Source: Treponema sp.
GTDB taxonomy: Bacteria > Spirochaetota > Spirochaetia > Treponematales > Treponemataceae
Assembly: GCA_012838745.1 (NCBI GenBank)
Contig: DUOS01000035.1
Span: 1 to 37,986, forward strand
Direction: 5' to 3'
DNA: 37,986 nt
Below, one piece after another: positions 9,706 through 14,485 of this stretch. Both the position numbers and the translations under genes were made by a program. Every line of letters starts with the position of its first letter. The first letter of the stretch is position 1. A model generated the notes under the pieces. That model did not search any database. It was not told the DNA's origin and was given only the letters and a program-made list of their open reading frames with translations.

Positions 9706-11295
9706 TTATTTCTTTTTACTGAATACACGATAGTTTATCTCTGGAAACAGATTATCACGTTTTTCAGTACGAGTAAGCCACTCGGTACTAATAAAGTTTG
9801 AGCCAAGGGATTCATAAACAACGGTAAATGCTTTTATGCAATCTTCGAAACGTTCACGTGCATACGCACTCTGGTCCCCCCGATTCATCATCAAGGCCCA
9901 GTCCATTGATTGCGCTAGAAGTAGTTGCCGAGCGGCCATATTCAGCGATCTCTCTTTGAGACTAGAGTCGTCTGGAAATCGTTCGGCAAGATCAATCATG
10001 CGAACAGTTGCCTTACGAACAAAGAAATACATCCAGTCATTTGTACTGTTAAGCACTTCTTCTGCGTATCCGCTTTTGTGCCAAGAAGAATAATAGGGAG
10101 TTACTATTTCAGAAGATGTCTGAAGCCGAAGACTCTCAGACGGAAGAGTAAGAGAAATATCACACATTTCTCCAACTTTTCGTGCGAGGGATTCAAACCA
10201 GTCTACCCCCTCATGCCATTCTTGACCAAAAAACGAAGCTGGTAGAGCAATAACATTGGCTACAGGCTTATCGTCTAAAAGTTTTTCTGCTTTATTGAGT
10301 AGGCGGACACGATCTTGTAAAAACGTATCCACGTCCTTTTCTCTTTGCGCATCAGCTGCATCAATATTATACCATGTAGATTTGCCACAGCTCTCTTTTC
10401 CCTTTGAATGAAAACAAAATCCAGTTCTTCGCCGGCCGAGAGAAACATCAAATAGAGAGGAAATATCTTGATCATCATAGTCAAAGCCAATATCGCGCTC
10501 CAAATCAAGATACGCATCATTACAAGCAATTCCACCAAGAGCAGAAAGACTTTCACAAGCAAGTGTGTCGCGTGCATATACTGTAAACCCATTTTCGCAT
10601 TTTGCAGGCGCAAAAATACCGCACTTGGGGGGAGGATCTGCAAAAAGAAGACCATGGGCATCTACTATCGTATATAAAAAACCGTATGATTTTAGGACTT
10701 TTTCTAAGCCGTCTACCCAAGCCATAGCCGGAAGCCAAAAGCCGGTGGGAGCCGTAGCAAAATGATTACGATAGACGACCAAGCCTGTTTCAATTTGGGC
10801 ATTAATTGCTTCGGGAATATCAGTATAGAGGGGAAAAAAACAGGAAGTTGCCGTTGTAGCCAGTATTTCCAAATATCCGTGCGTTGCAAAATAATCAAAC
10901 TTCTTGAGTATATTACGCTCGTATATCTCAACATAATCATTGCGGTTGAGTTGCTGGCGTTCAAGCTGATGATTAATAACAGCAGTAAGCTCTGGGATAT
11001 TTGCATGACGTTCAAGTTCTTCTATACCAAAGATTATTGAAGAGTCAAGAAAATCCACATAGCGAGTCTGTAGGAGAGGATCTGCAAGCATTTCACAAAG
11101 CATAGGAGAAAATGCTATAGATAGTTTAAAAGGTACGCCACTGGTCTCTAAAGCAGTGCAAGCACGTAAAAGAGGAAGATACGTTTCCGAAATAGCCGTA
11201 AACAACTGGGATTCTTCCATCCGGCCAGGTTCGTCTAAGTGACGAATAAAGGGTAACTGTGCGTCTAAAATAAAAATAAGTGATGTATCTATCAT
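9706..11295 (-). CDS. GH57/DUF1957 family protein, probably catalytically inactive
   Basis: The fold assignment rests on the N-terminal LPFIRH segment, TGFWLPAMAW (184-193), FGQEWHEGVDWFESLARKV (356-374), and the C-terminal DUF1957-like LLLAQSMDWALM stretch (458-469), all in the order found in bacterial GH57 alpha-1,4-glucan branching enzymes of about 530 residues. The catalytic positions do not match the family. The first H-x-H motif is D11-A12-Q13, the T-H-G of motif 2 is T150-S151-C152, the nucleophile Glu expected in LPEC is A190, and the acid Asp expected in DAELFGHWW is P352. I infer a pseudoenzyme, perhaps glucan-binding or regulatory. It follows the DUF4912 gene by 18 bases; those two families often occur together. 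The ATG has only a weak AGGA just upstream. There is no signal peptide, so it is cytoplasmic. Confidence 0.8.
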   Translation of the reverse strand: MIDTSLIFILDAQLPFIRHLDEPGRMEESQLFTAISETYLPLLRACTALETSGVPFKLSIAFSPMLCEMLADPLLQTRYVDFLDSSIIFGIEELERHANIPELTAVINHQLERQQLNRNDYVEIYERNILKKFDYFATHGYLEILATTATSCFFPLYTDIPEAINAQIETGLVVYRNHFATAPTGFWLPAMAWVDGLEKVLKSYGFLYTIVDAHGLLFADPPPKCGIFAPAKCENGFTVYARDTLACESLSALGGIACNDAYLDLERDIGFDYDDQDISSLFDVSLGRRRTGFCFHSKGKESCGKSTWYNIDAADAQREKDVDTFLQDRVRLLNKAEKLLDDKPVANVIALPASFFGQEWHEGVDWFESLARKVGEMCDISLTLPSESLRLQTSSEIVTPYYSSWHKSGYAEEVLNSTNDWMYFFVRKATVRMIDLAERFPDDSSLKERSLNMAARQLLLAQSMDWALMMNRGDQSAYARERFEDCIKAFTVVYESLGSNFISTEWLTRTEKRDNLFPEINYRVFSKKK

Positions 11296-11313: not shown

Positions 11314-11976
11314 TTAACCGAAAGACTGGCGATGATTTCGTAAATGCGTTTTTCGCAGTTCCGAAATTCCCGACAGCTCCAAAATTGGCGACTTCCTTTT
11401 ACGGGTATTTTCTGGAGTACCAAGAGTATTTTCTAGCCGAACTCCGTGCACACTAGATGCAGCAAGAATCCTATCTTTCTCCTGTTTAATCCGACAGAAT
11501 AAATCTACCCGATAATAATTCTTTTTATCTGATAAACGAACATACCATTTACGATCTGTGGCCCCCACTTCAACATCGAAAAAATCAAGAAGTTGGGATG
11601 AGTCCTCCCGAGAAAAGGTGTTTACTCGAAGGAAAAAACTATCAAAGTTTGGATTATCAAAAAGAGTATTAAACTTACTAGTGTGAAAATCCCAATAGAT
11701 ATAAATCCAGCCTGGATCACGTAATAAAACCGTAATTCGCGTTTCATTATAGCTCTCAGGAAGACTTTCTTCTGGGATTGGCATAGCAGAATCGGCTAAT
11801 GCTGCAGTTTTTACTGCATAACGCGCATTGTCTTCAGCCATTTCAAGTAATTCGCCGATAATAAAACGACGATTCAAGCCAGCAGGTATATCAACACCGT
11901 AGTCGTCTGCTATTTCAAGAAGGTCGTGCGTGGACAAACTTTCAAGATGCGTTTTTGTAAGCTTTTCTTCATCCAT
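11314..11976 (-). CDS. DUF4912 protein with Rho_N/SAP-like N-terminal domain
   Basis: Residues about 3-45 (LTKTHLESLSTHDLLEIADDY then GLNRRFIIGELLEMAED) form a helix-turn-helix-like pattern typical of Rho N-terminal or SAP domains, which bind nucleic acid or act as protein contacts. Residues about 65-190 match DUF4912 (RITVLLRDPGWIYIYWDF, then WYVRL and YYRVDLFCRI), a beta-rich domain found beside carbohydrate genes. The biochemical role is unknown. I chose the ATG at 11976 (220 aa); an in-frame TTG at 12015 would overlap the RluA gene and adds no conserved sequence. The Shine-Dalgarno is weak, so translation may depend on the RluA gene 25 bases upstream. Together with the GH57-like gene downstream it probably forms a polysaccharide-related module. 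Confidence 0.75.
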   Translation of the reverse strand: MDEEKLTKTHLESLSTHDLLEIADDYGVDIPAGLNRRFIIGELLEMAEDNARYAVKTAALADSAMPIPEESLPESYNETRITVLLRDPGWIYIYWDFHTSKFNTLFDNPNFDSFFLRVNTFSREDSSQLLDFFDVEVGATDRKWYVRLSDKKNYYRVDLFCRIKQEKDRILAASSVHGVRLENTLGTPENTRKRKSPILELSGISELRKTHLRNHRQSFG

Positions 11977-12001: not shown

Positions 12002-12667
12002 TCATATTGTGTCAATAGAGAGTGGAAATGTTATGCCAAGGGATTCAACACACCGCATCATATGATCAGGAAATGGAATTATAAAATGACGAGGAAGGTT
12101 AAGCTCCTGAGGCAGCTCCAACTCGTTTGCCACAAGTTGGAGCTTTCGAATTCCATGGTCTTTTCGTATCTGTCGGTTTAAGGGAAAGTTGCCATATTTG
12201 TCGTCTGCTAGTATGGGGCAGCCAATTGAAGCCAAATGAATGCGAATTTGATGGGTTCGCCCAGTAATGAGCTCGGCAGAAATAAGGGAGTATGTTCCGG
12301 CCGTTGCTAACACACGGTAACGTGTTTCAGCATTTTTTTTATCAATGCCCCTGCCCACAGGAGTCGTAATGCTCCCGTACAACTGGGAAGGAACGCCCAT
12401 GGTTACGGCACAGTATTTTTTTACAATTTCAGTTCCCGAAAGCAATCGAGTCAATCGAGATGCAGTAGCTGCATTGCGCGCTACTAAAAGTAGCCCTGAG
12501 GTCTCACGATCAAGCCGATGTACAGGAAACACGGGGCTACCTGTTTGACGAGTTAATATATCAACGAGGCTTATTGATATACCTGCGCCACCTTGAACAG
12601 GAATGCCGCAGGGTTTATTAATCAACAAGATGTCGGTATCTTTATAGAGCACCGAAATATCTTTCAT
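12002..12667 (-). CDS. RluA-family RNA pseudouridine synthase
   Basis: This 221-residue enzyme should convert uridine to pseudouridine in rRNA or tRNA. It begins in the catalytic domain (VLYKDTDILLINKPCGIPVQ) and lacks the S4 RNA-binding domain found in longer RluC/RluD proteins. The signature HRLDRETSGLLLVA contains catalytic D53, and the second motif LITGRTHQIRIHLASIGCPILADDKYG (conserved R-T-H-Q-I-R-x-H) is intact. The exact target site cannot be read from sequence. The start ATG (12665-12667) is 15 bases from the divergent ATG at 12683 and has no Shine-Dalgarno; a TACACT box seven bases upstream raises the possibility of a leaderless mRNA. It is the first gene of the run 12667-9706. Confidence 0.88.
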   Translation of the reverse strand: MKDISVLYKDTDILLINKPCGIPVQGGAGISISLVDILTRQTGSPVFPVHRLDRETSGLLLVARNAATASRLTRLLSGTEIVKKYCAVTMGVPSQLYGSITTPVGRGIDKKNAETRYRVLATAGTYSLISAELITGRTHQIRIHLASIGCPILADDKYGNFPLNRQIRKDHGIRKLQLVANELELPQELNLPRHFIIPFPDHMMRCVESLGITFPLSIDTI

Positions 12668-13831: not shown

Positions 13832-14485
13832 CTATTCGCGAGCAACAAGAAGGTTATACGCTGCCAAGGGAGTCTCAGCGGCAAGCAGACCTTCACGAAG
13901 TTCGGCGTTTTTAAGCCGGGTACTAAAATAGGAAAGAGTTTGCAAATAATATGCGTGCTGATTATATGCAGCGGCAATCATAAACAAGAGGCGAACTGGC
14001 ATATCATCAATAGTTTGAAAATCGATTATATCATTGCGGCATAACCCCACTGCCATAACAAGGTCTGTAACAGAAGAAAGGCGAACATGGGGAATAGCAA
14101 TACCGCGGCCAATCGCAGTAGACATGAGATCCTCTCGACGGAGTATTTCCACAGAGAGTTCGTTGCGGTTTTTTATTTGGGGAGCAGAACCTAAAGTATC
14201 GGCGAGAGCCACCAGAGCATCGTGCTTTGTTGAATGATCTAATAGCACAATCCTGTCGGGTGAAAGAATATTTTGAACTTGAACATGGGGGTTAGGTTGT
14301 TGTGATCGTGTTGAACCAGTAAGGCGTTCATTAACCCACTTTTCAATTTCGTCTTTTTTAAAACGCCAGACAGTTCCTATTTTCCCAGCGGGAATTTCAC
14401 CCTTTTGTGCCCAATCATATACTGTGCGTTCGGAAACACGTAGATACTTGGCAACTTCTTCTATAGTAAGTATATCGTCTGACAA
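13832..14485 (-). CDS. ptsN: Excisionase-type HTH fused to PTS EIIA (PtsN-like) regulator
   Basis: Residues 1-53 form an excisionase/MerR-type helix-turn-helix (LTIEEVAKYLRVSERTVYDWAQKGEIPAGKIGTVWRF, given in part). After a Gln/Pro/Asn linker (about 55-72), residues 73-217 match fructose/nitrogen-type PTS EIIA, with the phospho-accepting H133 in GRGIAIPHVRL. It should take phosphate from HPr or NPr and use it to regulate, with the HTH giving direct DNA binding. This architecture is known in spirochaetes. The start is TTG at 14483-14485, supported by GGAG eight bases upstream (14494-14497). A sigma70-like promoter with an internal palindrome lies just upstream, suggesting autoregulation. No EIIB or EIIC transporter gene is present, consistent with a regulatory rather than transport role. 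The gene symbol is assigned by domain only. Confidence 0.85.
   Translation of the reverse strand: MSDDILTIEEVAKYLRVSERTVYDWAQKGEIPAGKIGTVWRFKKDEIEKWVNERLTGSTRSQQPNPHVQVQNILSPDRIVLLDHSTKHDALVALADTLGSAPQIKNRNELSVEILRREDLMSTAIGRGIAIPHVRLSSVTDLVMAVGLCRNDIIDFQTIDDMPVRLLFMIAAAYNQHAYYLQTLSYFSTRLKNAELREGLLAAETPLAAYNLLVARE

Follow-up and report, generated by a model that had tools for sequence, protein, structure and literature searches.

A gene in a 37,986-nucleotide stretch of Treponema sp. DNA (the window) encodes a full-length homologue of GH57 glycogen branching enzymes (GBEs) in which every catalytic residue has been replaced, and the loss is common to its orthologues in the order Treponematales. 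Order-wide retention, descent in one clade and purifying selection strongly support, as far as sequence comparison can tell, the proposal of an earlier note on this DNA that the protein (pseudo-GH57) is a selected pseudoenzyme and not a product of decay.

A full-length GH57 protein without catalytic residues

The pseudo-GH57 reading frame lies on the minus strand (11295..9706), starts with ATG and contains no internal stops. Matches to BE_C (5.2e-33) and Glyco_hydro_57 (PF03065; 3.3e-22) were both above the curated Pfam cut-offs, and the match to both PF03065 and PF09210 places the protein in the GH57 fold. Its scores against the two NCBIfam GH57 branching-enzyme models were 200.6 and 165.1 bits, far below the equivalog cut-offs of 920 and 1000, respectively. 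The best PDB relative was T. maritima AmyC (2b5d; E 9e-82), with residues 6-527 covered in a full-length phmmer alignment. The features of the locus are as follows.

9706..11295, minus strand: pseudo-GH57, a 529-aa GH57 GBE homologue, full length and intact (ORF, Pfam, 2b5d alignment)
9721..10017, minus strand: BE_C helical domain (PF09210), residues 427-525, retained (Pfam)
11257..11265, minus strand: CSR-1, expected H-x-H, here D11-A12-Q13 (alignment to 2b5d HAH)
10840..10848, minus strand: CSR-2, expected T-H-(A/G), here T150-S151-C152 (alignment to 2b5d THA)
10726..10728, minus strand: CSR-3 nucleophile Glu site (AmyC E185), here A190 (2b5d alignment)
10240..10242, minus strand: CSR-4 acid/base Asp site (AmyC D349), here P352 (2b5d alignment)
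10216..10224, minus strand: CSR-4 tail, expected G-H-W-W, here G-Q358-E359-W360 (2b5d alignment)
11314..11976, minus strand: DUF4912 gene, directly upstream of pseudo-GH57 with an 18-bp gap (ORF, Pfam, homology)
12002..12667, minus strand: RluA-type pseudouridine synthase, upstream of DUF4912 (ORF, Pfam, gene context)

The comparison with a characterised GH57 branching enzyme that the earlier note had proposed showed that all catalytic positions are replaced in the window protein. The residue numbers given there for four lost motifs (DAQ, TSC, A190 and P352) were exact on the 2b5d alignment, and the CSR-4 tail is a fifth lost element beyond these four. The gene was likewise found to be intact, its 529-aa open frame aligning end to end with AmyC, and the C-terminal region is retained as had been stated, although the domain is BE_C (PF09210) and not the 'DUF1957-like' region that it had been called.

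The loss extends to the substrate groove. From the groove set of AmyC (W29, R237, F261, W356, W402, W411, S462, D463 and F466), the window protein keeps only R242, W405 and D465 in its own numbering, and W29, F261, W356, W411, S462 and F466 (AmyC numbering) are gone from the proteins of its family. The CSR-1 and CSR-2 histidines, the nucleophile Glu, the acid/base Asp and a complete groove, which mark a functional GH57 branching enzyme, are thus all missing. At columns that are at least 90% conserved among 54 orthologues outside the order, the window protein keeps none of the catalytic residues and 3 of 15 catalytic-plus-groove residues, compared to 89 of 128 at the other columns (Fisher p = 3e-4), demonstrating that loss at the catalytic and groove columns exceeds chance. 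In the fold comparison 2b5d was the top match for the pseudo-GH57 model (TM 0.66). The models of pseudo-GH57 and of the DUF4912 protein (pLDDT 61 and 63) are of moderate confidence, as both were built from 8 sequences, taken from the window and related loci.

Loss of catalysis across the Treponematales

Orthologues of pseudo-GH57 were present in 141 of the 149 genomes of the order and in 105 of its 107 good genomes. None of the 104 order orthologues that were aligned and tabulated keeps all six catalytic residues; the best-retaining one (L063) has five, with D changed to N. In a 154-row tree all order members grouped in a single clade (SH-aLRT 99), and the complete catalytic set was found in 0 of 100 rows inside the order compared to 45 of 54 outside. 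The comparison among spirochaetes suggested earlier therefore bore out that losses at the same positions are common to the order and that spirochaetes outside it mostly keep the catalytic set. This tree leaves out L105 and the long-branched L107; a first tree that included L107 gave two label changes for the order. L107 (G136:C174) is a lone additional GH57 GBE in which the six catalytic residues are all present; its contig of 3.5 kb carries no DUF4912 gene beside it, and it would be either a transfer or a contamination.

The intermediate stages of the loss are visible among the families of the order. Seven members of family f5 retain E and D together, with N and R replacing H10 and H355. Families f3 and f4 keep D, H12 and mostly GHW, while H10 is changed to N and the nucleophile to Q, H or other residues. 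In the window's family f1 (Treponemataceae) nearly everything is lost and a few members hold single residues, such as the copy of genome G030 (L094), which retains E and has P at the acid position. The entropy of the catalytic columns lies at percentiles 39-75 in f1 compared to 0-24 in the active set, showing that these columns are ordinary in f1 and implying that no alternative catalytic residue has been fixed at those sites. No new conserved acidic cluster that might represent relocated catalytic residues was found, so that such a relocation is unlikely. The result provides a natural case of an enzyme becoming a pseudoenzyme within a single operon throughout a bacterial order, in which the name '1,4-alpha-glucan branching enzyme', prompted by the domain matches, would be wrong.

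A profile search of the class Spirochaetia, in a sample that included the order itself, detected orthologues in 244 of 297 genomes. Orthologues from the rest of the class, and those of remoter phylum members with an adjoining DUF4912 gene, in most cases still have HAH, TH, E, D and GHWW. As this complete state is found outside the order and also in the outgroup, it is simplest to assume that the loss took place within the order; since the active-looking orthologues of the class also stand behind DUF4912, the operon is ancestral and catalysis was lost within it. The active-looking orthologues of the sister orders are ready controls. Nine of the 54 outside rows lack at least one catalytic residue and four of these nine lack the E/D pair, indicating that catalysis was eroded more than once. 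Repeated erosion would fit a second role that was already present in the ancestor. Independent partial catalytic losses were observed in other Spirochaetia families (L188, L189, L191, L195, L203, L204 and L132).

Retention under selection

Nei-Gojobori dN/dS ratios for close pairs within the order, excluding pairs with saturated dS, were mostly 0.015-0.15, indicating strong purifying selection. The nearest orthologue of the window gene (72% identity) is dS-saturated, so the evidence for selection comes from other order members. With retention in nearly all good genomes and these ratios, a decaying remnant or an annotation or assembly artefact is hardly credible, even though root-to-tip paths are longer in the order (median 3.4 compared to 1.9 changes per column) and one copy is split, as reading frames are full length nearly throughout the order. 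The split copy, that of Brucepastera parasyntrophica (G028; L066 / L042), consists of two overlapping frames; the genome is a single contig with only 88% completeness, making a sequencing error likely.

Linkage with a DUF4912 gene

The DUF4912 gene was found directly upstream of and co-directional with the GH57 gene in 151 of 154 loci, the three exceptions being L101, L107 and L138 (in which the GH57 match starts 9 bases from the contig end). The gap between the two genes was less than 60 bp in 54 of 61 f1 loci, all 38 f2-f5 loci and 43 of 47 class loci. The window, with DUF4912 upstream on the same strand, thus carries the two-gene unit of the Spirochaetia. The earlier description of pseudo-GH57 as a partner of the DUF4912 protein holds in the sense of this gene linkage, adjacent, co-directional and usually within 60 bp, and only in that sense. 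The start of the DUF4912 gene (ATG at 11976) was chosen by homology; the longest ORF begins with TTG at 12015. The RluA-type pseudouridine synthase gene is a probable member of the same operon and stands upstream of DUF4912 in the window's genus and part of the order. Further along, positions 13832-14485 (minus strand) encode an HTH_17-type DNA-binding domain fused to PTS EIIA_2, with 84-89% identity across the genus.

The window DUF4912 protein matched PF16258 (E 7e-20). Its helical N-terminus resembles Rho_N at E 0.003 (0.0003-0.0007 in three relatives), which is below the Pfam cut-off, and its DUF4912 sandwich resembles FN3/Ig domains (best E 1.4e-3, from the moderate-confidence model). These similarities give a hint that the protein may bind nucleic acid. 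Lys/Ala-rich histone-like tails were observed on the DUF4912 proteins of three distant phylum members (L214, L222 and L237), that of L214 (3848-4630) being histone-H1-like with an HC2 match of E 1.5e-4, below the cut-off. In phylum members outside the class, DUF4912 can occur without GH57 within 4 kb, suggesting that this partner is not needed everywhere. A PDB sequence search with the window DUF4912 protein gave no match, a literature search on DUF4912 returned a mention in an unrelated context only, and a literature search on the guessed T. pallidum locus tags TP0357-TP0360 returned nothing relevant.

Glycogen genes of the order

GlgA and GlgC were detected above cut-off in 131 and 116 of the 149 order genomes, respectively, and canonical GH13 GlgB in 1 of 149 order genomes and 4 of 294 class genomes. 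The GH57 enzyme is therefore usually the sole recognisable GBE in the rest of the class, and the order has almost none. The only order genome with canonical GlgB is that of B. parasyntrophica. Alpha-amylase_C (PF02806) was found in 0 of 13 sampled order genomes. The GlgB counts rule out replacement by GH13 GlgB. Two other candidates were rejected: for a GH13 protein of about 716 aa, present in most order genomes, those copies that were examined proved to be GlgX, and a GH13 protein of about 1200 aa, considered as an order-specific replacement, is class-wide (212 of 294 genomes) and occurs also where GH57 looks active. The copy of the latter in the window's genome (L270:1701-5315, minus strand, contig C165) matches GH13 only weakly and has no relative in the PDB.

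The same genome encodes a second GH57 protein of 636 aa (L238:2806-4713, plus strand, contig C175), which is 4-alpha-glucanotransferase-like with 1k1w as its best PDB match. Its nucleophile is lost, WLTERVW of TlGT being aligned to WLPASAW. Together with pseudo-GH57, it makes two GH57 pseudoenzyme candidates in one genome.

Genome G030 belongs to the window's family and is a single contig of 1,139,633 bp with 99% completeness. The results showed that DUF4912 and pseudo-GH57 adjoin in this genome, and no GlgA, GlgB, GlgC or any GH13 was found in it, demonstrating that the pair is retained there without any glycogen-synthesis gene. At 1.14 Mb the genome is T. pallidum-sized, and the finding offers a testable lead on the function of a gene that is kept even in so reduced a genome. 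A cheA gene was observed near the pair in G030.

Possible roles of pseudo-GH57

The reading that we consider probable is that in the ancestral spirochaete operon a GH57 GBE still capable of catalysis stood behind DUF4912, that GH57 chemistry was lost in the lineage leading to the Treponematales, and that the protein was kept for a second, non-catalytic role. In the Treponemataceae, the protein has lost its catalytic residues along with the alpha-glucan groove, but its barrel core and BE_C domain are still conserved. We infer that the protein forms a physical complex with the DUF4912 protein encoded by its neighbour, for which it would serve as a rigid scaffold, structural or regulatory in nature. 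That partner combines an Ig/FN3-like domain with a Rho_N-like N-terminus that putatively binds nucleic acid, and the process served by the two would not depend on glycogen synthesis. A more specific version is put forward only tentatively: throughout the Treponematales, including the reduced genome, the former GBE may be the non-catalytic half of a conserved DUF4912 complex, a dead barrel joined to a Rho_N-like nucleic-acid binder in a function unrelated to glycogen.

The old groove might alternatively still hold alpha-glucan in a lectin-like or allosteric manner and report on it or tether it to, for example, GlgA. The common occurrence of GlgA and GlgC in the order and the retention of W29, W402, W411 and S462 at 78-95% in f2-f5 are consistent with such a role, but the groove has been dismantled in the window's family and G030 retains the protein without glycogen-synthesis genes, so that as a general explanation it is unlikely. 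The suggestion of the earlier note that the protein binds glucan is accordingly weakened for the window's family, where most groove residues are lost, and stays plausible for the other families; judged from these residues, the protein is unlikely to be a glucan receptor in f1 but may be one in f2-f5.

It is rather improbable that the protein has been repurposed as an enzyme acting on another substrate through D243, D268, E362 or the order-specific E169. In f1 each of the four is conserved at 95% or more, and GH57-type barrels resemble GH38 and polysaccharide deacetylases by fold; however, D243, D268 and E362 are conserved in active enzymes too and may be structural, and the catalytic columns drift freely with no new conserved cluster taking their place.

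That the protein, alone or with DUF4912, still branches glucan by an unrecognised route is very improbable. The scarcity of GlgB and the absence of PF02806 from the sampled genomes, in an order in which GlgA and GlgC are common, would be explained, but the nucleophile, acid and histidines were lost together, the residues that replaced them vary freely, and the protein persists where GlgA is absent; an undescribed other enzyme could do the branching. Compared to these alternatives, the non-catalytic scaffold or regulator remains the reading that we prefer.

Comparison with known systems

AmyC of T. maritima has been characterised as a glycogen branching enzyme, and its hydrolytic activity is substantial (PMC6616209). 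The window protein resembles it in end-to-end homology, in BE_C and as its top fold match, but AmyC retains HAH, TH, E185, D349, GHWW and most groove aromatics, while in the window protein all catalytic residues and most of the groove are lost. The DUF4912-GBE pair of the class Spirochaetia (e.g. L134, L141 and L186) shares the operon and about 50-55% identity with order members (e.g. L073), whereas outside the Treponematales its catalytic set is intact. The upstream gene clearly belongs to DUF4912 (PF16258), a family that elsewhere in the phylum stands without GH57.

GBE-like GH57 proteins lacking catalysis were already described as a group, comprising 60 bacterial sequences that are GBE-related and have no catalytic residues (PMC6037648). 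The window protein is likewise a GBE homologue without catalytic residues, and the length listed for the group is 520 aa. The main text of that paper gives no spirochaete assignment, gene context or lineage analysis, whereas here all CSR residues are lost in the window protein, its order forms one clade, and linkage with DUF4912 and loss of the groove are shown. Compared with that main text, the apparently new elements are the order-wide lineage, the linkage with DUF4912, a loss in stages that takes in the groove, and the retention of the protein where glycogen genes are absent.
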